DNA of 64,000 nucleotides. Source: Paenibacillus sp. Soil750 (GTDB lineage Bacteria > Bacillota > Bacilli > Paenibacillales > NBRC-103111). Location: assembly GCF_001428045.1 (NCBI RefSeq), contig NZ_LMSD01000042.1, positions 273,891-337,890 of the forward strand, read 5' to 3'. The notes under the pieces are model-generated. The model had not been told where the DNA came from. It saw only the letters and a program-made list of their open reading frames with translations, and ran no database searches. A program made the position numbers and the translations under genes. Positions 5,748-49,766 of the stretch are shown one piece after another (the stretch's first letter is position 1; every line of letters starts with the position of its first letter).

Positions 5748-8033
5748 TTGATACTTCGAAATCAAGAGAGCAAATTTATGTATCGCAACATACTTCTCAG
5801 TATTGTTTTATCCATTGTCATTACCTTGCTTGTCTCCTCTACGATTCTTTATGTCAACTTCGACAATATTGCGCTGAAGCAAGTGTATGAATCCGACTCC
5901 AACTCCTTGCTCCAAACCAGTCAAGAAATTCGGACGATAACAGAGACTGCAACCTCCCTGTCTTTTCAAATTTATCGTGATTTCGTCATCAGTAAATTGT
6001 TGTTTTACGATAAACCAGATATTTATGATGTCCAAGGCAGCATGGCTCAATTGAATTTATATCGGCTAGCAATGCCATTTATTGATTCCATTTATGTGTA
6101 TAACGGAAACTCAGAGCTTTTCTACGTCAGCTCGAATAACTTTCAGAGCGGCATCCAAACAAAAGCCAATCTTGGCGACCCTGGCATGGTCGATATCCTC
6201 GATCATTTTCAGGATTACATTCCTTTCTTACCGATTCCAAGAACCTTCAAGTCAACTAATGTAAGCTCACTCCAAACCACAACTGTCGGGATCTATTCCT
6301 ATTTGTGCTATGATGCCATCAATTTGAATAATTCTTTGAATTCAGCCGTTGTCGTCAATATCTCAGAGTCCTTCTTCAATAAGTCATTGAAAAAAATCGC
6401 AAACAATCGGGCAAGCAACGAATTTATTATTAATAAAGAAGGCGTTCTGATCTCCACAGATGGATCCAATCCTGTACTTTCCAATTATGCAGATAAAGGC
6501 TACATCCAGAAAATTATCGCTAATGCTTCTTCACCGGGTTATTTGGTCGATAACGTCAATGAGAATAAGTCTTTGATTTCGTATACAGCTCCTGATTCTC
6601 TAGGATGGCGTTACGTTCGCACAACCCCTTACACCATTATCACAAAAGAGATCAGAGACATGCGTCTCAAAACCATTTATATCTCACTTAGCATTCTTCT
6701 ACTCGGGCTGCTCATTTCGTTCTTCATGTCCAAACGATTATTCGGTCCAATTGATAAGGTCATTCGAAGCTTAAAAACGTTAGAAATAGAAAAGCGTGAC
6801 AACCTGCAAATTTTACGACAAAATTTCCTGAGAAATATTATGTTGGGCAGAGATGCCTACCACCCTCAGGCATTGAAATCGAAATTATCCTATTTCGGAT
6901 CCAAAATCACCATTGATCATCCGGCTCTACTTCTCATGGTTAAAATTGATAAATATGAAGAAAACATTCGAACTTATAAAGATCAACTTACCTTATTACG
7001 CTATGCCATCATGAATATCGGTACCGAAATCAGCGCCTCCACCTTTCACGCGGAAGGCATCGATATGGGAGATGACCATATTTTGTTGCTTCTCTCTGCG
7101 AAAGAAACGGACTTCACATGGGAACCTGTACATTTCACTGAGTTACTTCTAAATATGCAAGCATCCATTTCTTCCTTCATTAAATTATCCGTATCGATTA
7201 CAGTAAGCCCGCTCCAAGACGAAGCGATACCGTGTTTCCAGCTCTATAAGCAACTGCTCGAGGCCTCTTACCATCGTTTATTTAGAGGACATGGCTGCAT
7301 CATTTGGTCAGATGAAATCATTGCGTACCGCACCAAGGAGTACAAATTCCCATCTCAGAAGGAAAAACAACTCGTCGATTGCCTCATGACAGGCGATTCG
7401 GAAGAGGCCGAACTGCTTTATACCGACATCGTGAATGAAACATCACTATATCCTTACACGGTCGTCCACTTGGCCATCTCCCACCTCACCTTAACCGTTA
7501 ATAATGTACTAACAACGATTAACAAGAATAATGCGCTAGCCTTCCCCCTTTATTTGGATGCTGCTGTCGCTTCTCTGACCCACGTCGAGACCATTGAAGA
7601 AATTAACGCGCAGTTCATTGACGTATTCAAGCAGCTTCAGAAAAAACTCGATGAGAAAAGAAGCTCTAAGCATGTGGAGCTGATCAAGAAAATGAACGAC
7701 ATCATTGATCGGGATTATGCGAATCAGAACTTGTCGCTTAACTCGATTGCCGATGAACTCGCGATGTCTTCCATTTATATTAGCCGGTTGTACAAACAGC
7801 ACACGATGGCTGCCATTACCGATGTGATTCAAGATGTGCGGATGAGCAAATCCAAAGATTTGCTTTTAAACTCTTCACTTTCCGTTGCTGAAATTGCGGA
7901 GAAGACAGGCTTTACGAGCGACTCTTATTTCTATCGTTTATTTAAAAAGTATAATGGGATTACACCGAATGATTTCCGCAAACAACTCAAATATGAGAAT
8001 ACGCTCCAACAGAAAGGAATTGAAGAACGATGA
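5748..8033 (+). CDS. membrane-anchored AraC-family transcriptional regulator
   Basis: A 761-residue regulator with a membrane helix near residues 13-35, an extracytoplasmic sensor region (Cache-like, about 36-305), a second helix near 308-327, a cytoplasmic linker, and an AraC-type double helix-turn-helix at the C-terminus (about 640-745, with LSLNSIADELAMSSIYISRL and AEIAEKTGFTSDSYFYRLFK). The start is TTG, supported by AAGGGGGA 8 bases upstream. Proteins of this layout in Paenibacillus sense extracellular sugars and switch on adjacent importers, which fits the divergent Lpl-type operon. Unusually, its stop codon overlaps the start of an isoprenoid-synthase-like gene by 4 bases, so the two are probably translated together. 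Confidence 0.9.
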   Translation: MILRNQESKFMYRNILLSIVLSIVITLLVSSTILYVNFDNIALKQVYESDSNSLLQTSQEIRTITETATSLSFQIYRDFVISKLLFYDKPDIYDVQGSMAQLNLYRLAMPFIDSIYVYNGNSELFYVSSNNFQSGIQTKANLGDPGMVDILDHFQDYIPFLPIPRTFKSTNVSSLQTTTVGIYSYLCYDAINLNNSLNSAVVVNISESFFNKSLKKIANNRASNEFIINKEGVLISTDGSNPVLSNYADKGYIQKIIANASSPGYLVDNVNENKSLISYTAPDSLGWRYVRTTPYTIITKEIRDMRLKTIYISLSILLLGLLISFFMSKRLFGPIDKVIRSLKTLEIEKRDNLQILRQNFLRNIMLGRDAYHPQALKSKLSYFGSKITIDHPALLLMVKIDKYEENIRTYKDQLTLLRYAIMNIGTEISASTFHAEGIDMGDDHILLLLSAKETDFTWEPVHFTELLLNMQASISSFIKLSVSITVSPLQDEAIPCFQLYKQLLEASYHRLFRGHGCIIWSDEIIAYRTKEYKFPSQKEKQLVDCLMTGDSEEAELLYTDIVNETSLYPYTVVHLAISHLTLTVNNVLTTINKNNALAFPLYLDAAVASLTHVETIEEINAQFIDVFKQLQKKLDEKRSSKHVELIKKMNDIIDRDYANQNLSLNSIADELAMSSIYISRLYKQHTMAAITDVIQDVRMSKSKDLLLNSSLSVAEIAEKTGFTSDSYFYRLFKKYNGITPNDFRKQLKYENTLQQKGIEER

Positions 8034-8968
8034 ATTGGCTCCATGATCACAAGAATCAATTACATCTTATTTTTGCAGAAGCAAAGGATGCTGTACGCCA
8101 ATTCCCTTCTCCATTGGACCAGCTAGGTCTTACCTATTTAGCTAAGTTTGATCCCACTCAAGAAGGTAGCAGCAAGAATTATATTTGTTATCTTCTTCCG
8201 TATTGGATGAAAGACATCTGCAAGCTGCCTGCAGAATCGTTTAACAAGCTTTCTCTAGCGAATATCTTTGTCATGCTGTACTATTTCATACAAGATGATA
8301 TTATGGACGCTAACAAAGGCGAACACGCAAGCAAGCTGCCACTCGCCAACTTATTCCATGTCCAATTCCTCTCGATTTATCGAGAGCTATTCCCTTCAGA
8401 TTCCCCCTTCTGGGACTATTACGAAACCTATATCCTAGAATGGTCGAAAAGTGTCACAAATGAACGACAATCCGATTATTTCCATGAGGACAAATTTCAA
8501 ATTGCCAAGAAAGCTAGTCCAGTTAAAAATGCCAGTACAGGGGCATTACTACTTGCCAACCAAGATGATCTCATCCCTGTAGTTACCAATGCCGTTGAAC
8601 AAACACTTGTAACCCTTCAAATGTTAGATGACTGGTCAGACTGGGAAGAGGATCTCGTAGATGGATCATATAATTGCTTAATCGCATCTATCCGCAAGCA
8701 ATTACAGCTTTCGACAGTAGATACACTAACGCCTGAAATGATTAAGCAGCAACTCTATGTCCATGACTTCTTCGCCGATTACGGAAAGACTGCTGACTCT
8801 CATCACGAGCACCTGCTAACCTTGTCAGTAGGCATGGAGCAACTGTTTGCCTTCCATGATTCTCTCGTGCAAAATATCCATCGGGTAGCCCAAGAAATCA
8901 AAGAGCGAAGGGCGACTTTAGTCTCTGGTGGGTTCTACTATTTTTTGTCTAATTCTGATAGATTTTGA
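8030..8968 (+). CDS. class I isoprenoid-synthase-like protein, possibly a ComQ-like peptide prenyltransferase
   Basis: A 312-residue soluble, mostly helical protein. It has two aspartate-rich motifs placed as in class I isoprenoid synthases: DDIMD (residues 89-93, helix context LYYFIQDDIMD) and DDWSDWEED (200-208, context LQMLDDWSDWEED). In this family such motifs bind magnesium and the diphosphate of a prenyl donor. The overall length and the QDDIMD motif recall ComQ, which prenylates a tryptophan of ComX. The ATG overlaps the stop of the AraC-family gene (ATGA), and an NHLP-leader peptide gene follows 74 bases later. Whether the product is a free terpenoid or a prenylated peptide is inference. 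I rate the fold likely and the peptide role plausible. Confidence 0.75.
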   Translation: MNWLHDHKNQLHLIFAEAKDAVRQFPSPLDQLGLTYLAKFDPTQEGSSKNYICYLLPYWMKDICKLPAESFNKLSLANIFVMLYYFIQDDIMDANKGEHASKLPLANLFHVQFLSIYRELFPSDSPFWDYYETYILEWSKSVTNERQSDYFHEDKFQIAKKASPVKNASTGALLLANQDDLIPVVTNAVEQTLVTLQMLDDWSDWEEDLVDGSYNCLIASIRKQLQLSTVDTLTPEMIKQQLYVHDFFADYGKTADSHHEHLLTLSVGMEQLFAFHDSLVQNIHRVAQEIKERRATLVSGGFYYFLSNSDRF

Positions 8969-8988
8969 TAGATTAATAGATATGATCG

Positions 8989-8997
8989 TGGTATACT
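8989..8997 (+). promoter_or_regulatory. extended -10 promoter candidate for the NHLP peptide gene
   Basis: The sequence TGGTATACT reads as a TGn extended -10 element just after the stop of the synthase-like gene. There is no good -35 box; the upstream bases are AT-rich with repeated GATAGATT. It would give the peptide gene its own transcript with a leader of about 40 bases, besides any read-through from 5693. Confidence 0.45.
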
Positions 8998-9042
8998 TTT
9001 ATTTGTAGGAAAAATTACCCAAATGACTAGGAGTGAATACAA

Positions 9043-9282
9043 ATGTCCACAAATGATAGCGTAAAAGCCAAAATTATTCAAAAAGCTTGGGAAGATGAAG
9101 CCTTTAAACAACAACTTCTAGCCAACCCGAAAGCAGCGCTGAAACAAGCATTTAACATTACACTCCCAGACGACATCAAAGTCAAAGCTGTTGAAGAAAC
9201 TTCGACAGAATTCGTTCTAGTAATCCCTACAAATCCATCTAAGATTCTTGTTACATCTGATGCCGTAGCAGCAGTTTGGTAA
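9043..9282 (+). CDS. NHLP-leader RiPP-type precursor peptide ending in tryptophan
   Basis: A 79-residue peptide. Residues 5-65 match the nitrile hydratase alpha-like leader (NHLP) pattern: a helical KAWEDEAFKQQLLANPKAAL, a short LPDDIKVKAVEET strand and FVLVIPTNP. NHLP leaders normally continue into an acidic helix and a Gly-Gly cleavage site before the core; here only SKILVTSDAVAAVW follows, there is no double glycine, and Trp79 is the last residue. A ribosome binding site AGGAGTG precedes the ATG. It follows a ComQ-like enzyme and ends at a terminator shared with a convergent kinase gene. I infer a secreted or signalling peptide; the modification and the cleavage site are unknown. A degenerate or regulatory NHLP protein is the alternative. 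Confidence 0.8.
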   Translation: MSTNDSVKAKIIQKAWEDEAFKQQLLANPKAALKQAFNITLPDDIKVKAVEETSTEFVLVIPTNPSKILVTSDAVAAVW

Positions 9283-9290
9283 AATAAAAT

Positions 9291-9322
9291 AAAGGTGTCC
9301 CGCCATTAGCGGAACACCTTTT
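9291..9322. terminator. bidirectional terminator between peptide gene and kinase gene
   Basis: Stem AAAGGTGT (9291-9298) with ACACCTTT (9314-9321), extended by CCG/CGG after one mismatch. It has A-rich bases before it and T-rich bases after it, so it can end transcription from both sides of this convergent pair. Confidence 0.85.
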
Positions 9323-9323
9323 C

Positions 9324-11231
9324 TTAATTTATTGTCACATTTGGGAAACGTATAATTACTTCTGTACCTAAGAATCTTTGACTTTTAAACTCAATATGCC
9401 CCTTCATAATCTCGATCAACCGAAACGTCACCATTAACCCTAGTCCCGTCCCCTTCGTCTTCGTGGAATAGTAAGGCTCGCCTAATTTTCTCAGCTGCAT
9501 GGGCTCAATTCCCTCACCATTATCCTTGATATGTATGAATACTTCTTCATTCTTCTCATAAGCCCAAATATGTATTTGCCCATCCGCTTGAAACGCTTCG
9601 ATACTATTCTTGATAATGTTAATCAAAATTTGCTTAAGCTTCGAAGAATTCCCGAAAATATGTAAATCAGAAGGAACATTGACGATAATCTGACCGCCAT
9701 TCAATGTTGCTAATGGAACAATGATTCCTTCTATTTGACCAATTTCCTTGCTGACATTCAATTCGACGATTTCATCCAGCTGCGGCTTCGCAAATGTAAG
9801 AAAGTCTGTGATAATCACCGAAGCCCGATCCAGTTCTTCGATCGCTATCGTCATATATTCCTTGTTCTTATCATCCGTTCGAGCCGCAACAAGCTGCAAA
9901 AACCCTCTTGTAACTTGTAAGGGATTCCTGACTTCATGTGCGACCGAGGCCGCTAAGGAGCTAATCATCTCCATCTTCTCTGATAGCTGCAGCTGATGAT
10001 TATAAAATTCCAATTCCTTCGAATAGTTCGACATCTGCTCCTGATTGATTGCGAAACGCCTACCCAATATCACGATGAGTGCAATAATAAATCCAACCAC
10101 ACCAAATTTCCATAGGAAGAACTGATACTTTTGATTATTACTATAGTAAAGAATAAGATCAAAGATCCCCATCAATGCAAATATAGCGAAACCTGAAGAG
10201 AAAATAACAGCCTCTCTGTTTCCTCGAATAACAAAAACAATGGACAGACTAATAATTAAAATAAACTCAAAAATCATAATCACACTTAGCATGGTCAGTG
10301 TGAAAAATAAATACGTTTCGATAAACTGAAATTGATTGACCTGATTAAATAACATCAAAATAATACAGAAAGCTGAATAGGCAATCTGAAATTTCCGGAA
10401 AATACGAATCCATTTAAATTTGCCATTGTCAAATATTTTCTCATAAAAATAAATAAGTGATGGCAAAAATATGGCTAAAGAAACATCAAAAATATTCAGA
10501 ATCAAAGCACCAAAAGGTGTGAAATTAGCATAAAGAAAAGGGGAGTAGGTAAGAAAGATCGTACCTAATGTAAGAATAATTAAACTAAGTGAAATCCAGC
10601 TTGCCCGTTGTTTCTGTTTGAGAAAGAGTGAACAAATCAGCATAATGACAGCAATGAATAGAAAAGCAAACCCGAGGATGATATTCTGCAAATCGCGAAA
10701 TATGAATGTATGTGTCAAGGAGGTATAATGATCCAATTGGATATCGGAATGTATGCCCAACCGCTCCATGCTTGTCTGAAGCTTTAAGTAAACACTCCCC
10801 CCACCGTCCTCCGCGCTTATAGGAAGCAAACTCCGTTGTTCGTCATAAGGAAAGTCAAATTTCACTTCATTAAGTAATCTACCACCTATGTAAACCGATA
10901 CCTGTTGTGCATAAATACCATCGATATACAAGCCAAAGTCCTTAGGAAGATTTTCCGGTAGTTGGATACGGACCCAAGCAGTAGAAACATCTTTTGGTTT
11001 ATCCGGCATTTCCGCTCCGCTCTCGATCGACATCCATTGATCTTTATCTGACGAAGCTATGATATCTTGAACTTTATCATCGGCCCCCCCCCACTTCATC
11101 TCCCAGTTTGGAATCGTTTTCACACCATCGGGCTGCTCCGCCATCACATGATTAGCCATAAATAATAAGCCAAACAAGAAAACTAACCCTATTTTCCATC
11201 GCAAATGATGTTTTTGAAGCCAATGCTGCAT
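9324..11231 (-). CDS. multi-span sensor histidine kinase (7TMR-DISM type)
   Basis: A 635-residue kinase: signal segment (about 10-31), an extracytoplasmic beta-rich domain like DISM extracellular domain 2 (about 40-170), seven or so membrane helices (about 183-390), a short coiled coil, then HisKA with the phosphoacceptor His432 in VAHEVRNPLQV, and HATPase with N box ILINIIKNSIEAF, G1 DNGEGIEP and G2 GTGLGLM. It should phosphorylate a response regulator, but none is adjacent. It converges on the NHLP peptide gene, which makes a peptide-sensing role like ComP thinkable; unlike ComP it is of the HisKA class. The coding strand has a run of nine G at 11084-11092 (codons for Trp47-Gly48-Gly49-Ala50). 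Confidence 0.88.
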   Translation of the reverse strand: MQHWLQKHHLRWKIGLVFLFGLLFMANHVMAEQPDGVKTIPNWEMKWGGADDKVQDIIASSDKDQWMSIESGAEMPDKPKDVSTAWVRIQLPENLPKDFGLYIDGIYAQQVSVYIGGRLLNEVKFDFPYDEQRSLLPISAEDGGGSVYLKLQTSMERLGIHSDIQLDHYTSLTHTFIFRDLQNIILGFAFLFIAVIMLICSLFLKQKQRASWISLSLIILTLGTIFLTYSPFLYANFTPFGALILNIFDVSLAIFLPSLIYFYEKIFDNGKFKWIRIFRKFQIAYSAFCIILMLFNQVNQFQFIETYLFFTLTMLSVIMIFEFILIISLSIVFVIRGNREAVIFSSGFAIFALMGIFDLILYYSNNQKYQFFLWKFGVVGFIIALIVILGRRFAINQEQMSNYSKELEFYNHQLQLSEKMEMISSLAASVAHEVRNPLQVTRGFLQLVAARTDDKNKEYMTIAIEELDRASVIITDFLTFAKPQLDEIVELNVSKEIGQIEGIIVPLATLNGGQIIVNVPSDLHIFGNSSKLKQILINIIKNSIEAFQADGQIHIWAYEKNEEVFIHIKDNGEGIEPMQLRKLGEPYYSTKTKGTGLGLMVTFRLIEIMKGHIEFKSQRFLGTEVIIRFPNVTIN

Positions 11232-11339
11232 GTATTCACCTTCCCCCGATGACTGTAAGTAATTTACATTAAATGAATTCGACGGGGTTATGTGCTTTCC
11301 TTCTTAACTAGGTAAACATTATACAAACAAAATGAAACA

Positions 11340-39977: not shown

Positions 39978-42900
39978 CTAAATAAACAACTCAATCTGCT
40001 TAACGTCCCCTAATCTTTCCAGCGAAATCGGCGCATGATCACGGAAATAAGCTTGATTAATTTCCTTCTCCTTGGTCATGACCAGCTTACTTCCATTGGC
40101 TGCCTGTCTGAGCCTACAGCTAAAGACAACTGGGAAATAGTCCTTGAGGAATTTGCCTTCCGCATGCGCTGTCAGTGCAATGATCTGGAAGCCAAGCTGC
40201 TCAGCGATAAAAAACACAGGACTTAGCACGTGGTCACTCGATGCCTTCCCGAAGGGATTGTCAAGGATCACGGTGCGATGCCGCTTCATGTTCGCTTGAA
40301 TATGCTGCCGTTTTTCGGCGACATAGTTAAGTAAGCCTAAGAATAATGTCATATTTTTGCTCCATTTTTCCCCGCCAGACCAATTGTTCGACTGTTCCCA
40401 TGAGAAGGAAGCCTTCGTTACATTATTCTCATTGGTGACTTTACGGCAGGAAACTTTCATGACTTTTTCTTGCAAAACAATCTGTAGAAGCTGCTTGGTA
40501 TCCAACCATTTTTCGAGCTCCTTGCGAACCGTTGATTTCACTTCTTGATCGTTCTCATCACGGTAATGGCCTTTTTCTAGTTCGGTCAAAACCCATTCCA
40601 AATGCTTGCGCAAATGATCTTTCGCCTCAAGTTCATCCCATTCAGGAATGAGAAAGGAGAAAATATGCTTCCACTGATCTTCAACTTTAACTCTCGTTTT
40701 ATTGGGAATATCTCGAAGTTCAGACGCGATCAGCTTCAAATGGCTGTGCACATGAATGATATACTGTTCAAGCTGCTGATTGTGTGTGCGCATCGTCTCT
40801 TCCGCGACATGATTGACGCGTTCAATGCGGCTGTGCATTTTATGCTGAAATTGTGTCAGCTCCACATAGTTGTCTTTGTTCTCGACACCTTGCTCAGCCA
40901 TATCTCTCATTTTGACATCCTTAATTTGTTTCCGGCAAAAATCAATAAAATGCAGCCTGGCCTTTTTCACCGTCGACTCTTCCACTTCTAGTTCTTTCAT
41001 CAAGGCGATTAGCGACGCCACAGATTTCCGCACCCATTTCATGCGGTCATTCAGAAACTCCGCTTTCTGCTCCTGTGTAATAAAAGCTGCTTGAATGAGT
41101 GGATTTTCAAACCCATGCAAAATTTTGTATTGATTTAAGTAATCGATCACATCTCCGATTTTACTTAATTGCGCCTGGATTTGCGTGTGTTGCTGCTGTA
41201 AGCCCAATTTCTGCTGTTGCAGACGTGCATCCTCACTCTGGACTTGGGCATCCACTACGCTCAGCGACTCCGTAAAGGTTAGTGGCCGCTCGCCCTCGTG
41301 TAAACCACTATACTGCTCAATCAGTAATTTAATTCGCGCTGTCAATTCATTAAATTGTTTGTCGACCCGCACCAATTCTTCCTTATCGCGCATTAGCCGT
41401 GATTCGTGTTCCTTGAGCTCGGACAATAGCTGTGACATCTGATCTTCACCCGTCACAGAGAAAGCAAGCTCCTCGTTCAAGTTCAGATCCGCTTGTTCCA
41501 AGCGAAGCTTGTTCATCTCTCGCTCCAACGTTGTTCTGCTAGCCTGAGCATGCTTCAATTCCGTTTCAAGTTGCTGGCGCCCTTGGGATATATGATTGAG
41601 CTTGAGATGCAAATCTTTTCTCTCTGTTTTCAACCAATCTAAGCTATGCTTCGCTTCAATGGGCTGCACATCCGCTAGTTCAATATATAGATCTTGGCTT
41701 AGCAGACTCGCTTTCTCCGTTCTCAAAACGCTCATTCTGCCCTTCACGGACTCGCTCTGCAGCTTCGCTAGCTCCATTGAGCGCCTTCTACCTTCCAGCT
41801 TATGCTGCTGATCGTTAGACTGCTGGTCAAGCTGGTCGATCGCCCCGTTCAACGTCATGATTTCTTTGCCCAGCTCGATATACTTCCGCCCTTTTTCAAT
41901 CCACTGCCCGAGCCGAATCATTTCCTCTTTTTGCTCATCAAGGACGGCATTATGCTGCTGAATCACCTGCTCTGCCTGACGAATGGATCTCTTGATGGCA
42001 TCCTCTTGGCCTTCTAGCTCACGCACAGAATCGCGCGCAAGTCCTACTCCCCTTTCCATTTCTTGCACAACCTCAAGCGGATATTGCAAGAGGAACCGGC
42101 TAAACGCAGCTTGAAGCTCAGAGGTACGCTGCAGATCACGCTCCTTTTCTTTGCGCGCTGTTCGAACTTCTTCTCCTTTTTGTGTGATCGCATGTTTCCA
42201 GTTGATGAATTCCGCCGCCTCCGCATTATCACGCCAATGCTGCGGTTCAACCCACGCGCTACCCTCCGCTGCTGCCGGTGTATCACTACCCGCTAGACGC
42301 GCCGCTTCCTGAGAAGAGATTACCTGGATCGGGTACTGCATATCTTCTGCATACTGCTGCAGCTTGCTTGTAACTAACCCAACTTCGCCTTCTGTCGTAA
42401 TCAACGTGATGGACCATAGCGGTTGCGTCATCGCCCGCTCGGTTAACTTCAAACTCTGCAAATATTGAATACCTGTCTCTAGTAACGTGAACTGGTTTCT
42501 CCACTTGTCCACCAAGCCAGCCACATAGACATCGGCAAAAAATATGGGTTGAGAGCTATAATCATCAATATAGCGAAAAGCAAGACGCTCTTTCAGCAAG
42601 TAAGCTTCTTTCTCGAGCAGGAGCTTTGCCGTATCCTCGCTAAGTCGTTCTTCAATCGAACTCTGCTTCTCATATACAGACGAGAGTCTTCCCCATGAAG
42701 ACCTGTACAAAGCGATTTCTTCAAGCATGGATTGCTGCTCTTTTTTAAATGATTCGAGCTTATGCTCTATATTGGCACGCTCCACGAAGGCAGTCTTGAG
42801 GCTTTCACTCACGCTTGCCAGTTGTCTCTCACTTTCCTCTTTACTCAATGCCAAATCCTTGTTCTTCTCCACCAGCTGAACGTTACTGTCATCCAACTTC

Positions 42901-44408
42901 TGATAACGTTGACTCCAGTCCGCCATGCTGCCTTCCATGCTCTCGACTGCCGGATTGACCAAAATATTAGCCCTCAGCTCATCTCTATCTTTCTCGCGGG
43001 CTTGTACAAGGGATCTATGTTCAATGAGTTGCTTGTTTAATAGCTCTAGTTCACTTGAGAGATCACGCAGAATCGTTTCCTCTAGGTTCAACCTATTCTG
43101 ATGAGCAGCTTCTTCCTGACTGAGCTTCTCTTGTTCTACCTGCCACTCGTGCTCCATCTTGCTGAAAATACCGCGAATTTGCCCGCCATTCTGGCTCCAC
43201 GCGTTCCGTAAAACATCCTCTTCTTGGGTGTGACCGAATTGTTCAAGTTCCCGCTGCACATAGTTCATACGCTCCTCGGCAGAAGTCCATTGCTGCTTGT
43301 AATCGGCCAAACGCAACGAATAGTAGCTCTCTCTTGCACTTCGGACAAGCTTTTCTTTGAACTCAACGTCGTCTTCAACTAATCTAAGCTTTGTTTCCAA
43401 CACGGATTGCTCCTGCATCTGCTTTGCAATATGCAGCGATTCCTTCTTCCGAGCCAATACAAGCAATTGCTCATCACAAGTCGACATCATCTGATGCCAC
43501 CCCGAGAGCTTGGCGGTTTCCTCATTCTTCTGCTCATTGACGAGCAGCCAATAGGCCTTTGTTTCAGCTTGTGCAGCCGCATAAGCCACCTGCTTCGTAT
43601 CCATCGTGGCATAACGATGCACATACTGGTCCAATTCCACGAGGATTTTTTTGTTTTCTTCGATTTTTTCTTTTAATTCTTTATATTTTTTGAAGCTGTC
43701 CCTATGCATTTCAAAATTATTCGCGAACTCGCCTTGTTCATAGCCAGCCATCGCATCTTCTACCGTCGGGATCAACAAACGATCAAACAACTGGCCAGTC
43801 GTTTTGCATTCGTCAAAGAAGCTCTCAACCCCGCCCTCCGAGCTATTGATCTTAGCAATCCGTTCCCATTCTGAAGCTATTATATGGTAATCATTTTCCA
43901 ATATTTTTCTGTATTCTTTCATCGTCGCTGGCAGCTTCGCATTCATTCTCTTCACCGTCATTTGGTGGTAATAATCATGAATTTCACCTTTATCCGCTGC
44001 TCGCAGATGACCGACACTTTCCTTAACAAAAGGAATCCGATCAATCGCGTCGGGATCAAGCACTGGATAGTCATACACATACCGATACGAATCAATCCCT
44101 GTAGCCGTCAGAAATAAGCTGATGCAGGTCACTACATATCGTCGAGGCCGTTCACTTAAAATCCACTCGATCGCGATGTGCGCAGGACCATTTTCGAGAC
44201 TTAATGTATCTTTGATTTTACGCCCAGCTAGTTCCTCATGAGGCAAAATGGCTTGAATAGCAGACTGGATGAAAACCGTCTTGCCTCCTCCATTTTCCAA
44301 CAGAATCGCGCCATTATGCCCATCGAAATGAAACAACTCGTCGTTGTAACGCTTATTTCCGTCCTCATAGACGACATTCGTAAATCGTATTCTAGAGATC
44401 GCTGGCAT
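39978..44408 (-). CDS. jetC: Wadjet JetC, SMC/MukB-like ATPase
   Basis: A 1476-residue SMC-like ATPase. Walker A is ENGGGKT near residues 38-44; long coiled coils run from about 230 to 1300; near the C-terminus are the signature WSGGEKWSKN and the Walker B and D-loop region TVILDNPFGKASSDHV, with a later ALTAHAEG. JetC is the motor that extrudes DNA loops in the Wadjet complex, leading to cleavage of small circular plasmids by JetD. The start is the ATG at 44408, with GGGAGGGAAG ahead of it; it overlaps the end of jetB by 17 bases. The longer frame to 44465 is not supported. Confidence 0.92.
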   Translation of the reverse strand: MPAISRIRFTNVVYEDGNKRYNDELFHFDGHNGAILLENGGGKTVFIQSAIQAILPHEELAGRKIKDTLSLENGPAHIAIEWILSERPRRYVVTCISLFLTATGIDSYRYVYDYPVLDPDAIDRIPFVKESVGHLRAADKGEIHDYYHQMTVKRMNAKLPATMKEYRKILENDYHIIASEWERIAKINSSEGGVESFFDECKTTGQLFDRLLIPTVEDAMAGYEQGEFANNFEMHRDSFKKYKELKEKIEENKKILVELDQYVHRYATMDTKQVAYAAAQAETKAYWLLVNEQKNEETAKLSGWHQMMSTCDEQLLVLARKKESLHIAKQMQEQSVLETKLRLVEDDVEFKEKLVRSARESYYSLRLADYKQQWTSAEERMNYVQRELEQFGHTQEEDVLRNAWSQNGGQIRGIFSKMEHEWQVEQEKLSQEEAAHQNRLNLEETILRDLSSELELLNKQLIEHRSLVQAREKDRDELRANILVNPAVESMEGSMADWSQRYQKLDDSNVQLVEKNKDLALSKEESERQLASVSESLKTAFVERANIEHKLESFKKEQQSMLEEIALYRSSWGRLSSVYEKQSSIEERLSEDTAKLLLEKEAYLLKERLAFRYIDDYSSQPIFFADVYVAGLVDKWRNQFTLLETGIQYLQSLKLTERAMTQPLWSITLITTEGEVGLVTSKLQQYAEDMQYPIQVISSQEAARLAGSDTPAAAEGSAWVEPQHWRDNAEAAEFINWKHAITQKGEEVRTARKEKERDLQRTSELQAAFSRFLLQYPLEVVQEMERGVGLARDSVRELEGQEDAIKRSIRQAEQVIQQHNAVLDEQKEEMIRLGQWIEKGRKYIELGKEIMTLNGAIDQLDQQSNDQQHKLEGRRRSMELAKLQSESVKGRMSVLRTEKASLLSQDLYIELADVQPIEAKHSLDWLKTERKDLHLKLNHISQGRQQLETELKHAQASRTTLEREMNKLRLEQADLNLNEELAFSVTGEDQMSQLLSELKEHESRLMRDKEELVRVDKQFNELTARIKLLIEQYSGLHEGERPLTFTESLSVVDAQVQSEDARLQQQKLGLQQQHTQIQAQLSKIGDVIDYLNQYKILHGFENPLIQAAFITQEQKAEFLNDRMKWVRKSVASLIALMKELEVEESTVKKARLHFIDFCRKQIKDVKMRDMAEQGVENKDNYVELTQFQHKMHSRIERVNHVAEETMRTHNQQLEQYIIHVHSHLKLIASELRDIPNKTRVKVEDQWKHIFSFLIPEWDELEAKDHLRKHLEWVLTELEKGHYRDENDQEVKSTVRKELEKWLDTKQLLQIVLQEKVMKVSCRKVTNENNVTKASFSWEQSNNWSGGEKWSKNMTLFLGLLNYVAEKRQHIQANMKRHRTVILDNPFGKASSDHVLSPVFFIAEQLGFQIIALTAHAEGKFLKDYFPVVFSCRLRQAANGSKLVMTKEKEINQAYFRDHAPISLERLGDVKQIELFI

Positions 44409-45153
44409 GTTCGCTTCCCTCCCCCTCAAATGCATGGCTTTGATATAAAAACTCCAAAATACCACGGTTATACTCTAGTTCCATAAAATAGCGCTGCACA
44501 ACCACTTTAGCCTTTTCGGTCAACGAAATTTCCTGATTGCCAATATCGATCACCAATTCTTGCGCGATGAGAAACTTGCGGACAGAATCCATGAAACTAA
44601 CCCGGCTGATCGTATTCCCGCTTTGCCTCGCGGCCGTCTCCTTGATATCGTCCATGGCACTCCATTTTTCGATCAAGGCTGTCCAGTTATAGGAGAATTC
44701 CTTCTCCATCTCTTTTAATTCCGCTTCCGGATGAGTCTTCAATAAGGCAATTCGCTCATTCACAAGCGCTGTCCATTCTTCAATCCCGATAAAACTTCTC
44801 GTAGGCTCCATCGTTTGATAGCTATCATAGAAAGCGCCAATAAGCACAATAATGCTGACATACATCAAATAAAGATCCGCATTCACAGCATTCGCCCGTA
44901 GATAAGTGCGTTTAATCACTTCGTTATTCATATGAAAAGGCGATAGCCTTGTCTCCGGAATCATATACAGTTGTTCGCCAGCAATGATCGTTACGCAATC
45001 GACTTCTCGCGCAAATTGATCCACAAGTCCGCGTACCACGTCGTCCGCCATGTAGGCTTGAAGCCACTCTTTCCCCACCTCGTTATCGCGAGCGAGCAAC
45101 GTATAGATCCGAAAAGCTTTCATTACTGTTCCATTTTCAAGTCCGATTGTCAT
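44392..45153 (-). CDS. jetB: Wadjet JetB, MukE-like subunit
   Basis: A 253-residue protein with winged-helix-like character in its C-terminal half (FMDSVRKFLIAQELVIDIGN), placed between jetA and jetC. JetB is the KITE-type subunit that binds JetA and regulates the JetC heads. Sequence alone would not show this; the call rests on gene order and size. GGGGAG precedes the ATG by 6 bases, and the gene overlaps both neighbours by 17 bases. Confidence 0.82.
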   Translation of the reverse strand: MTIGLENGTVMKAFRIYTLLARDNEVGKEWLQAYMADDVVRGLVDQFAREVDCVTIIAGEQLYMIPETRLSPFHMNNEVIKRTYLRANAVNADLYLMYVSIIVLIGAFYDSYQTMEPTRSFIGIEEWTALVNERIALLKTHPEAELKEMEKEFSYNWTALIEKWSAMDDIKETAARQSGNTISRVSFMDSVRKFLIAQELVIDIGNQEISLTEKAKVVVQRYFMELEYNRGILEFLYQSHAFEGEGSEHASDL

Positions 45154-46663
45154 CCTGTTCTCCCCATGAAATCAACATATTCTGTATGCTAAACCTGTCA
45201 TTCACCTGAATGATGTCCTGTTGTTCAATTACGACCAAACAGCGGCTTCCCAGAAGCGCATACATATCTTCCATTAATGTCGCCTGCTCCTCATTCTGCT
45301 GCTGATCCATATCCACCGCCCGCAAGGGGCTTCTCTGATGCAGATAAATCCAAAAATCATAGAATGCTCTCTCGCTCAGCAATCTGGCATCTTCACGTAT
45401 TTCGAACTGTTCGATGAAAAGTTTCACTTCAACTTGGCCCTGCTCTTCCATCATCTGCAGAAGGAGCTCCATCAGATGCTTGTACAACTTTTTCTGCATC
45501 GTCTGGTATCGGTATTCATCGCTGTCTCCGCCAATTTCAAGAAACGTATCCTCACGCTCCTGTCCAGTGCTGTCTTCTAGTAAATTTTGCTCAGCCCACA
45601 CCGTCAACAGCGACCACATCTTCGTCTCTTGCACAGGTAAGAACGGGGCTATCACACCTTTCATCGTCTCCGGAGGCAGTGGCGTACTAAAGATAAGAGA
45701 TGCAATATCCTGATCGAAATTAAAGGAATCGAGTCCCGTATAATACAAAGATTCTTGCGCTGCGCCCAAGGCATGTGATTTCAACACCATACTCTGATGG
45801 AAAAGAACGGAATGCTCGCCATGTACCTTCTCCAGCTCATTGGATATCCGTAAAATTAACTCATAAGGTCGTTGATCCACCTGTCTAACGGTCTGTGCCT
45901 GAACGCGATCCTTGGTCTCTTTGACAAATTGGCGTAATTCCTCAAACTCCTCATTCTCCATTTGTAATCGCAAATAAATATCTTCTAACAGACCTTTATA
46001 ACGTCCGAATGTTTCCTCCGACACAATGTTTCTTTTCAACTCGTGCTCGAGCTTAATCATCCGTTCCTGCAAAGCTTCCACGTCGATCCGCATTTCGTTA
46101 ATTTGTCGCAGAGCGCCTTCAAACTCACCCTTTTCCAACTGTTTGCGCAATACCAACTGATGAATGGACAATTGAAATTCGGTGTAAAATTCCTTGGTCG
46201 CAAAAATAAGCTCCAACCCATCCTCGTCGAGCGTGTAGTACTGCGTATTCGTTTTTAAATCGAAAGCATTCGCTTTCAGAATCGATATGTAAATATGTTC
46301 CTGCACCCCAGATTCCCAGTTCATAAACGTAAAATCCCGCTTCTTCCCTGTCGTCGGGCGAAACACTTGCGTGATCTGTCTAGCTAGATCCTCAAATCCC
46401 GCTTCATCTAAATCAATGAAGATTCCCGTCACTTTGAGTAGAAACTCGGCTAAGTCCTTGACACCTGCCTTATTGTTTCGCATCAACTTCTGCTCGAAAA
46501 AGTAAAGCAGCGTTAGCAGCCCGAGTTCCATAAAATCAATGGGTTTGTTCTGTCGATCTGTTTGACGTTTTCTCTGCAGCTCATAGAGCGGATCAAAAAG
46601 TGCCAGCTTGGTCATTCGTTCCCGAAACCCGGAAATCACCTGACCAATTTCTAGGTAGTCCAT
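45137..46663 (-). CDS. jetA: Wadjet JetA, MukF-like kleisin subunit
   Basis: A 508-residue, largely helical protein. It has an N-terminal winged-helix-type region, a central helical rod (about 200-290) rich in Glu and Arg, and a C-terminal winged helix, which is the kleisin layout. The start is at 46663: GGAGG lies 8 bases before this ATG, whereas the frame to 46741 runs into jetD without a site. Overlap with jetD is 13 bases and with jetB 17 bases, so all four genes are coupled. Confidence 0.84.
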   Translation of the reverse strand: MDYLEIGQVISGFRERMTKLALFDPLYELQRKRQTDRQNKPIDFMELGLLTLLYFFEQKLMRNNKAGVKDLAEFLLKVTGIFIDLDEAGFEDLARQITQVFRPTTGKKRDFTFMNWESGVQEHIYISILKANAFDLKTNTQYYTLDEDGLELIFATKEFYTEFQLSIHQLVLRKQLEKGEFEGALRQINEMRIDVEALQERMIKLEHELKRNIVSEETFGRYKGLLEDIYLRLQMENEEFEELRQFVKETKDRVQAQTVRQVDQRPYELILRISNELEKVHGEHSVLFHQSMVLKSHALGAAQESLYYTGLDSFNFDQDIASLIFSTPLPPETMKGVIAPFLPVQETKMWSLLTVWAEQNLLEDSTGQEREDTFLEIGGDSDEYRYQTMQKKLYKHLMELLLQMMEEQGQVEVKLFIEQFEIREDARLLSERAFYDFWIYLHQRSPLRAVDMDQQQNEEQATLMEDMYALLGSRCLVVIEQQDIIQVNDRFSIQNMLISWGEQDDNRT

Positions 46664-47697
46664 GCTGTGTGCCTCCAAATCTTGCAAAGCTCGTGTGTTG
46701 ATACTATTTCTTGGGGAAAATAGCCCCCCGTTGCTAGACACTGGTTAATAATTTCCTGTTCTTCCACAGTGAAATGAGAGAGAAAATCTTGCAATGCTTG
46801 CTCATGGCCACGTTGGTTTTCTTTTCCGTATGCAAACTCTAGGCTCAGACATGCTCTGTAAAAGGGAAGGGCTAGATTAGCTGGTCTACCAAAAAGCGCA
46901 AGTACCCGCTCATTAAATAGATGCCAAATATGGATGCCTACTCTATCGATATCGCCAAAATAGTAGAATTCGTGCGTTGCATCCCTGAGCGGGAGCTGCA
47001 ACGGCAGCAACTCAATGCTTCTCGTAATGCGATAGCCGCCGCCAAAAATAAGCGTAGCAAACGGAACATCCGGCAATGCCTGCAGCAGCGCTTGATACGT
47101 TGTTTTATTTTCAACGATTAGATGCCTATGAACTACACTCGTTAAACTATATGGATTCACAGCAAACATCAAGGGGTCTTCTACAGGAATAATTAATAGT
47201 TTGTCCCACATACCGATTCGGGTCAGCAGCTCTTTCCCTTGCTTCTCTGTTATCCATTTCTCATCTGCGACTAGCTCAAAGCTGCGCTCCGGTGCCGGTA
47301 CCGGGGTGGTTGGAAGCTTCCCCCGCTTCAAATAGGCGTCAATCCGTTCCAAATAGGGCCTGTCTTGCTCCCAAACTTCCGCTCCTACTGAATAGTAAGT
47401 ATCCAGTTGAATATCAGGATGCAGCAGCATCCTGGCCTGATGGATGTCCTTATGCGTATCTACTTTTAACCGATTCTTCTGCACGCTATATTGATAGGCA
47501 AGGGATGGTCGCTTACCCGTTCTCCCTTTGCTCTGAACCATCTGAATGATCTCCTCAGCTTCAAGCTCAAGTACCGACTGAGCGAATTGTTCGTAGGTAC
47601 ATGGCTGGCCTTGAAATAAAGCTTCTAATTCGTGAAGAGAGACTTTGGCTTTCTTTACTTTTTGCAAATATGTACGAATGATAGAGTTGGGATTCAT
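46651..47697 (-). CDS. jetD: Wadjet JetD, toprim-type nuclease subunit
   Basis: A 348-residue protein. The C-terminal half is a toprim-like domain: acidic residue in LIVENKTTYQ (about residue 192) and the D-x-D pair in YFGDIDRVGIH (about 248), as in topoisomerase VI A-type nucleases. The N-terminal half includes a winged-helix-like part. JetD cuts plasmid DNA held by the JetABC loop extruder. It is the first gene of the operon; the order jetD-jetA-jetB-jetC is one of the known Wadjet arrangements (type III as I recall it). Confidence 0.9.
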   Translation of the reverse strand: MNPNSIIRTYLQKVKKAKVSLHELEALFQGQPCTYEQFAQSVLELEAEEIIQMVQSKGRTGKRPSLAYQYSVQKNRLKVDTHKDIHQARMLLHPDIQLDTYYSVGAEVWEQDRPYLERIDAYLKRGKLPTTPVPAPERSFELVADEKWITEKQGKELLTRIGMWDKLLIIPVEDPLMFAVNPYSLTSVVHRHLIVENKTTYQALLQALPDVPFATLIFGGGYRITRSIELLPLQLPLRDATHEFYYFGDIDRVGIHIWHLFNERVLALFGRPANLALPFYRACLSLEFAYGKENQRGHEQALQDFLSHFTVEEQEIINQCLATGGYFPQEIVSTHELCKIWRHTAWTT

Positions 47698-48608: not shown

Positions 48609-49766
48609 ATGACAGAGCCCTTATTTATCGTTTCCAAAGAGGATTGGTCACTCCACCGCAAAGGATACCAAGATCAAACCAGACATCAAGAGAAGGTCAA
48701 AGATGCGATTAAACAGAACCTTCCTGATTTGGTTACAGACGAAAGCATTGTCATGTCCAATGGTAAACAAGTCGTGAAGGTACCGATAAAAAGCTTAGAC
48801 GAATATCGCTTCCGATACAACTTCAACAAAGGCAAGCATGTCGGTCAAGGCGACGGTGATTCACAGGTTGGTGATGTACTTGGAACAGACCCGCAGCCTG
48901 CCCAAGGTCCAGGCAAAGGTGAAGGCGCTGGCGATCAAGCTGGCGAGGATTATTACGAAGCCGAAGTGAGTATGGAAGAGCTGCAAGCGATGCTGTTCTC
49001 CGAGCTCGAGCTGCCGAATTTGCAGCAAAAAGAGAAGCGGAATATGACATCCACCGAAGTTATTTTCAATGATATTCGTAAAAAAGGGATCATGTCCAAC
49101 ATCGACAAGAAACGGACGATCCTCGAAAATATGCGCCGCAATTCGCGAGGCAGCTCGCCGGGTATCCATCATATTTCACCAGATGATTTGCGTTTCAAAA
49201 CATGGGAAGAAATCGAAAAACCGCACTCCAATGCGCTCATCATTGCCATGATGGATACCTCTGGTTCCATGGGCTCCTTCGAGAAGTACATAGCCCGCAG
49301 CTTCTTTTTCTGGATGACCCGCTTCTTGCGCACGAAATACGAGAACGTTGAGATTGTGTTCATCGCGCATCATACCGAAGCCAAAGAGGTGACAGAGGAA
49401 GAGTTTTTCACGAAAGGCGAAAGTGGGGGCACGATCTGCTCCTCAGCTTATCAAACTGCCATTGATATTATTGATAAAAGGTACCCCCCTTCTCAGTTCA
49501 ATATTTATCCCTTCCATTTCTCGGACGGAGATAATTTAACTTCCGATAACGAGCGCTGTGTGAAGCTGATTACACAATTAATGGAGCGTTCGAACATGTT
49601 TGGCTACGGGGAAGTGAATCAATATAACCGCAGTTCAACGCTGATGTCCGCTTTCCGCCATATCAACAATCCGAAATTCTTGCATTATGTCATCCGTGAA
49701 AAAGGTGAAGTGTATAAAGCGTTGAAAACCTTTTTTACCAAACAGGAAGGAGTGCCTGCACAGTGA
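48609..49766 (+). CDS. yhbH: sporulation protein YhbH (UPF0229)
   Basis: A 385-residue protein opening with [23 protein letters not shown], with a Gly/Asp/Gln-rich linker (about 78-115) and a C-terminal von Willebrand A-type domain containing the metal-binding [10 protein letters not shown] (about 215-224) and the loop [10 protein letters not shown]. YhbH acts with PrkA kinase and SpoVR in the sporulation and starvation response. An AAGGAGGTG site precedes the ATG. PrkA is not next to it; spoVR overlaps its end by 4 bases. Confidence 0.93.

Follow-up and report, generated by a model that had tools for sequence, protein, structure and literature searches.

An orphan KinB-like kinase in a PalQ–PalX–PalP locus of Paenibacillus suggests a possible prenyl-peptide input to the Spo0F phosphorelay

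A 64,000-nucleotide stretch of the genome of Paenibacillus sp. Soil750 (contig NZ_LMSD01000042.1, positions 273,891 to 337,890; hereafter the window, in whose own positions coordinates are given) carries a PalQ–PalX–PalP (PalQXP) cluster, comprising an isoprenoid-synthase-like enzyme, a peptide with an NHLP leader that ends in tryptophan, and a histidine kinase. This cluster has already been published for Paenibacillus alvei by Miyata, Ito and Fujinami in December 2023 (PMC10853753), whose available text introduces PalP as the histidine kinase, PalX as the NHLP precursor and PalQ as the prenyltransferase; the view of the original prediction that no system with this combination had been described is thereby refuted. 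The locus probably encodes a ComQXP-like prenyl-peptide signal whose output has been rewired from ComA to the Spo0F/Spo0A phosphorelay. New in the present work are the counts of linkage and spread, a class of PalX peptides with a non-terminal Trp, the orphan and KinB-like PalP with its sigma-H-like promoter, and PalP genes found without PalQ nearby.

The three open reading frames (ORFs), the motifs DDIMD and DDWSDWEED and the terminal Trp79 that the original prediction had described are all present. palQ (8030–8968, forward strand; 312 residues) is followed on the same strand, after a gap of 74 bp, by palX (9043–9282, forward; 79 residues), and palP (9324–11231, reverse; 635 residues) lies on the opposite strand, convergent with this pair, with a terminator-like inverted repeat in between (9282–9330; 22-nt arms, 82% complementary, 5 nt between them). 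Homology, an AlphaFold2 model and Foldseek identify the palQ product as a probable Trp prenyltransferase of the isoprenoid-synthase fold. It is 44% identical over query residues 1–309 to PalQ of P. alvei DSM 29 (locus L167, on the contig of PMC10853753). The model is all-helical with a mean predicted local distance difference test score (pLDDT) of 91.3, and its best Foldseek matches were prenyl diphosphate synthases (probability 1.00, best E 2.7e-3, TM-scores about 0.5–0.7), at identities of 9–17% among the 50 matches listed and none with an E of 0.001 or less. The window protein passed no Pfam or NCBIfam family, and its sequence gave no match to solved structures at E 0.01; the sole family name obtained was DUF5685, which fell below its cut-off in the window protein and was matched by 14 of the 54 members at an E of 0.01 or less.

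In alignments of 48 and 54 PalQ sequences, both including the window protein and having some genomes in common, the residues D89, D93, Q197, D200, D201, D204 and N215 were invariant. They comprise D89 and D93 of the first Asp-rich motif DDIMD (D89–D93; 8294–8308, forward), Q197 (8618–8620, forward) and D200, D201 and D204 of the second Asp-rich motif DDWSDWEED (residues 200–208; 8627–8653, forward). As far as the accessible text of PMC10853753 goes, P. alvei PalQ has D89, D93, D200, D204 and Q197 at identical residue numbers, Q197 is proposed to hold the indole NH, and the D200A/D204A protein was still active in an endpoint assay. The P. alvei enzyme moved C5, C10 and C15 chains onto PalX in vitro (+68, +136 and +204 Da) and was specific for a C-terminal Trp, and the C5 product of the core octapeptide was established by nuclear magnetic resonance as a C3-prenylated pyrroloindole. 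The two clusters agree in their three genes, NHLP leader, C-terminal Trp and histidine kinase, and differ in the core, which is DNVRRFFW in P. alvei and would be DAVAAVW or SDAVAAVW here by analogy of the cleavage site. The identity of enzyme and peptide is thus firm on grounds of homology, and the predicted prenylation of the terminal Trp of PalX by the window PalQ is supported through its P. alvei homologue.

The window PalX passes the NCBIfam model TIGR03793 (leader_NHLP) with 74.6 bits against a cut-off of 50.9, and its variable C-terminus reads ...SDAVAAVW, Trp79 (9277–9279, forward) being the predicted prenylation site. Among 108 PalX peptides of 70 residues or more, taken from non-overlapping locus sets, the Trp lies within the last three residues in 107; it is the last residue in 80, the penultimate in 26 and the antepenultimate in 1. 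The sole exception is the P. alvei DSM 29 record (L167 5412–5792), in which the ORF continues past DNVRRF, unlike the published core. Trp79, whose invariance the original prediction had asked to be checked, is therefore conserved as a Trp near the C-terminus and not as a strictly terminal one. Homologues without the terminal Trp, which the prediction had counted as a refuting result, were in part observed, as 27 of the 108 carry one or two residues after it and one record lacks a Trp there. Likewise, in 13 peptides from 13 further genomes, picked so as to include divergent ones, the Trp was last in 6 and was followed by one residue in 3, two in 1, three in 2 and four in 1. Divergent peptides with two to four residues beyond the Trp occur at L218, L221 and L224 (PWRD, PWRSF) and at L220 (MWGTGS), an arrangement nearer to that of ComX. 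On a quick PalQ tree of 110 rows, computed with FastTree and containing several weak forks and long branches, the state of the Trp, terminal or inner, switches at least 8 times. The P. alvei core was no longer prenylated once an alanine had been placed behind the Trp (PMC10853753, available text), and the non-terminal-Trp class would therefore call for either a different enzyme specificity or prior trimming.

Sequence variation in PalX is concentrated in the core, much less of it being seen in the leader. Across 90 loci, the mean pairwise distance was 0.41 for the leader and 0.74 for the last seven letters up to the Trp, and 94 distinct last-eight strings were counted among 107. Upstream of palX, the hexamer TATACT (8992–8997, forward) may be read by eye as the −10 element of a vegetative promoter; TATAAT or TATACT was seen before palX, again by eye, in 7 of the 12 upstream stretches listed. 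Between this element and the ribosome site, the segment TTTGTAGGAAAAATTACCC (9002–9020) looks conserved by eye in close relatives within the genus and may be an operator or a 5' UTR element.

Of 30 genomes from the genus, 27 contained a PalQ relative; the corresponding counts were 42 of 104 for the family and 272 of 392 for a sample of the order Paenibacillales, where the relatives covered 23 of 49 genera. The linked occurrence that the original prediction had made a test of its proposal was borne out: all 48 family loci, in 42 genomes, contain the complete trio, in which PalQ is accompanied by a PalP of full length and by one or more NHLP peptides whose Trp lies close to the C-terminus, an arrangement that is hence not due to chance. 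In 47 of the 48, PalQ and PalX share one strand with PalP convergent, PalQ being turned in L073. A second set consisted of the best 80 of 207 confirmed loci in named genomes, 28 of which overlap the 48 family loci, with about 4.5 kb available on either side; here PalP and PalX were each present in 78 of the 80, neither being found in L157 and L208, and the PalP of L195 was weak and without an H-box motif. Among neighbours of 110 residues or more in the 48 family loci, the PalQ and PalP clusters each covered 47 loci under the clustering rules applied, and any other at most 23. The commonest neighbour outside the trio was a Mem_trans transporter gene (23 of 48 loci), which lies some 6–7 kb off in the window. 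Within the family, all 42 PalQ-positive genomes gave a match to the PalP sensor that reached at least 199 bits, as did 2 of the 62 PalQ-negative genomes, intact in one (G046) and as a broken piece in the other (G028); the remaining matches in PalQ-negative genomes did not exceed 79.1 bits.

Six genomes, including that of the window, carry a second PalQXP locus, whose PalQ is 28–32% identical to the window protein. These second loci hold two to four tandem copies of PalX, counting the shortened ORFs of L081 and L084, and every PalX in them has a non-terminal Trp. The second locus of the window's own genome (G000:C40:416711-420515, corresponding to L080 5126–8930) encodes a PalQ2 of 30% identity, two PalX copies ending in TWN and AWS, and a PalP with the specificity residues QVGFQL. 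Two genomes (G009 and G024) have three PalPs each, namely a full PalQXP, a PalX–PalP pair with no PalQ in the fetched stretch (L228, L230) and a PalP alone in its stretch; G046 has a PalP alone. Under the signalling interpretation, the extra PalPs would serve as second channels or as listeners, though they may just as well be relics.

By its sequence, PalP is a KinB-like orphan kinase. The HisKA and HATPase_c domains scored above their Pfam cut-offs and 7TMR-DISM_7TM below. The structural model (mean pLDDT 79.7, predicted template modelling score 0.59) shows an N-terminal helix, a beta-rich part at residues 42–168, about seven long helices and the kinase core, and these helices, together with hydrophobicity judged by eye, suggest a multi-span membrane protein. 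The nearest solved sequence to its kinase domain is the Geobacillus sporulation kinase B (3d36) with 181 bits, the next scoring 97 bits. The putative phospho-acceptor His432 (9936–9938, reverse) lies within AHEVRNPLQVTRGFLQL, an H-box that is near-invariant among PalPs. At the specificity positions, which in our own mapping are His+7, 8, 11, 12, 14 and 15, 94 of 98 PalPs read QVGFQL and 3 read QVGFQV, with the motif missing in one (L195). According to the accessible part of PMC6136694, the verified sporulation kinases are orphans with a common specificity set TxGFQL/I, KinB having TVGFQL and KinA TAGFQL. Five of the six PalP residues are thus the same as in KinB, the Gln at His+7 being, at the level of sequence, the one consistent departure. 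Eleven other orphan kinases of the window's genome read T[SAT]GF[QK][LM] in 10 cases and TVGYDL in one (L115). PalP resembles KinB and the orphan sporulation kinases in its orphan status, in having KinB as its best solved sequence match and in the common GFQL, and differs from them in the beta-rich N-terminal part and about seven long helices of its model and in Gln, not Thr, at His+7.

The orphan status was assessed on the best 30 of 66 kinase matches in the window's genome and on a receiver list comprising 150 of 233 candidates. No listed receiver domain comes within 7.7 kb of any of the top 13 kinases (PalP, its paralogue and the 11 others), but 14 of the next 17 have one at a distance of 2.5 kb or less; this split between 13 and 17 was drawn after the scores were seen. 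A direct scan of the 1.5-kb flanks found no receiver for 12 of the 13 top kinases and a receiver for all 17 others, some of them hybrids; for L112, a PalP-like orphan kinase, the receiver-domain match falls on its own ORF and may reflect a hybrid or a false match. In the genome of the window, neither a receiver nor an adjacent cognate response regulator lies in the flanks of palP. A receiver gene stands within 3 kb of palP in four of the 48 family loci and a 64-residue piece in one more, one per locus, and none of the four genes belongs to a shared neighbour cluster of these loci. Among the 80 named loci, a receiver was flagged in two (L144 and L162).

A sigma-H-like promoter, GAAGGAAAG-N11-GTCGAATTC (11275–11303, reverse), precedes the palP start codon by 43 nt and scores 16 of 18 against the sigma-H consensus RNAGGAWWW/RNNGAATWW, which is that of Bacillus (PMC8510167, available part). 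Scores of 17 or more of 18 were reached by 25 of the 48 family palP loci against 5 of 483 controls, and of 16 or more by 42 of 48 against 61 of 483. In this comparison and the next, the controls come from upstream of other long ORFs and are lenient, because many of these may be internal to operons; the loci are related, so that the counts are not independent. In the non-overlapping named set, with a narrower spacer, scores of 16 or more were found in 25 of 47 loci against 20 of 275 controls. The best-scoring site differs from the aligned site in some loci (e.g. L040, L053 and L057). An anchor GTC[GA]AA lies upstream of palP in 46 of the 48 family loci; in 44 of these it is preceded, at 17 nt, by a G. 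Its form GTCGAA, which we take to be part of the 0A box TGTCGAA, precedes palP in 45 of the 48 family loci against 14 of 483 controls. As a universal Spo0A box of palP, GTCGAA was not upheld, occurring in just 14 of the 50 non-overlapping named loci; the looser sigma-H-like shape is more general. The composite pattern AGGAWW-N11-13-GTCGAAWW, built from palP sites, has 18 matches in the genome of the window, the reversed pattern having 1, and stands before both palP genes and before spo0A (420.7 bits with TIGR02875, whose cut-off is 200). Five of the 18 sites, including that of the second palP, were flagged inside a longer ORF. The sigma-H-like promoter fits a stationary-phase role.

In the ComQXPA system of Bacillus subtilis, the class I prenyltransferase-like enzyme ComQ puts an isoprenyl group on a Trp of ComX, and ComP is the neighbouring membrane histidine kinase that senses ComX. 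PalQXP agrees with this system in its class I prenyltransferase-like enzyme, its peptide Trp as prenylation target and its membrane histidine kinase next door. The window PalX carries an NHLP leader and ComX none; ComP has ComA as its partner, while palP keeps no regulator at its side. Moreover, the available text of PMC10853753 gives ComQ as at most 25% identical to PalQ and the ComX Trp as internal; PalQ and ComQ are accordingly remote relatives, and the proposal that an NHLP peptide has replaced the ComX precursor is not borne out by these data. By the mechanism that we favour, PalQ would prenylate the C-terminal Trp of PalX at its indole C3, as expected from homology and from the in vitro work on P. 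alvei. Removal of the NHLP leader, for which cleavage by P. alvei lysate is the precedent, would leave a short prenylated peptide of about 7–8 residues, which would then exit the cell. The conserved trio suggests that the N-terminal or membrane part of PalP senses this peptide. PalP would then most likely phosphorylate Spo0F and so bring information on density or kin into the stationary-phase Spo0A decision. Taken together, the evidence points to the Spo0F phosphorelay, not a ComA-type partner, as the output of PalP.

The main text of PMC10853753 uses the word PalP once, and in its available form the paper holds nothing on PalP function, paralogous loci, a non-terminal Trp in natural PalX, or regulation; a literature search for PalQ together with PalX returned nothing beyond it, and broader searches put it first, the further papers listed being, to judge by title and opening of the abstract, on other subjects than this enzyme. 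In Paenibacillus, the phosphorelay is well conserved in its members (PMC12826061, accessible part), so the proposed output exists. For P. polymyxa, five kinases have been reported in the text available (Kin99, Kin689, Kin1038, Kin1377 and Kin3851), of which PalP may be one, and the trigger of sporulation entry in this species is called unclear (PMC7538429, available part). Kin1377, when expressed in a B. subtilis kinA kinB strain, is reported to have restored sporulation (PMC6429003).

Several observations weigh against PalP as a PalX-sensing kinase of the phosphorelay. The Gln at His+7 occurs in all 97 PalPs with a readable H-box, against Thr in KinA–KinE, and may insulate PalP from Spo0F. 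In Foldseek, ZraS ranks just ahead of KinB (28% against 44% identity), and in NCBIfam AtoS (160 bits) scores above KinD (142 bits), with no cut-off passed by these or any other family among the best 25 matches listed. Pfam found no PAS domain in PalP, while the accessible part of PMC6136694 defines the sporulation-kinase signature by orphan status together with a PAS domain and describes the kinase domains of these proteins as not markedly closer to each other than to other kinases; Table 1 of the same paper marks no PAS for KinB or KinD. The shortfall of GTCGAA in the named set counts here as well, as does its presence ahead of 17 of 57 palX genes of the family set, at a distance of at most 150 bp; 2 of 48 palQ genes of this set are preceded by it as well. 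Neither an exporter nor a protease is linked to the trio, and PalP stands alone in the stretches fetched from G009, G024 and G046 (L229, L231 and L232). Ligand–receptor covariation was considered as support for sensing and set aside, the signal being weak and not specific: in partial Mantel tests on the 90 loci with one PalX, the partial r between peptide core and sensor was about 0.1, below that between core and leader (0.13) and between core and kinase domain (0.26), and thus of no help to the sensing interpretation. Finally, we found no experiment in the literature that ties PalP to PalX or to Spo0F.

The first alternative retains the prenyl-peptide signal and has PalP address a dedicated unlinked response regulator, with the invariant Gln insulating it from Spo0F. 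The replacement of T-x-GFQL by QVGFQL or QVGFQV in 97 of 98 PalPs speaks for it, but the remaining five specificity positions match KinB and the promoter fits a stationary-phase role, and we regard it as unlikely. According to a second alternative, PalX is an antimicrobial or surface-active prenylated RiPP (ribosomally synthesized and post-translationally modified peptide) whose production is controlled by PalP, as in lantibiotic autoinduction. NHLP leaders are common on RiPP natural products. The cluster was moreover detected as a RiPP cluster by antiSMASH (PMC10853753, available text). This explanation nonetheless appears quite improbable, because the trio is not accompanied across genera by any conserved transporter, immunity gene, protease or response regulator, even the commonest neighbour being restricted to under half of the loci, and because PalP is an orphan of KinB-like sequence. 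A third alternative, in which the product of the enzyme is a free terpene or polyprenyl diphosphate and peptide and kinase are bystanders, agrees with the prenyl diphosphate synthases among its fold matches but is barely credible, being largely refuted by the peptide prenylation published for the P. alvei homologue and at odds with a trio that is kept while neighbourhoods change.

In its wider surroundings, the AraC regulator whose stop overlaps the palQ start (8030–8033) and the sugar ATP-binding cassette genes were considered as parts of the system and rejected, the AraC cluster occurring in just 17 of 48 loci. An Rfam scan of the window gave no match. Elsewhere in the window, four overlapping ORFs of 1495, 253, 534 and 348 residues (39978–47697, reverse) lie near a DUF444 gene (48609–49766); the 1495- and 534-residue proteins matched no Pfam family at E 1e-5.

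Beyond the rewired prenyl-peptide signal proposed for the locus itself, a broader view can be put forward only tentatively, as somewhat short of an even prospect: PalQXP may constitute an order-wide quorum-sensing family of the Paenibacillales, in which a KinB-like receptor is addressed by a peptide with a C-terminal or near-C-terminal prenyl-Trp that directly tunes Spo0F–Spo0A, some genomes having second channels with tandem PalX and one residue after the Trp, or receptors that have no enzyme or peptide of their own nearby and would hear a shared or foreign signal. The non-terminal-Trp class would broaden the known specificity of PalQ-type enzymes and be of use in peptide lipidation. Should PalP indeed phosphorylate Spo0F, the sporulation decision would have an extracellular signal of defined chemistry in the form of a prenylated peptide, and PalQXP would represent a separately built counterpart of ComQXP.

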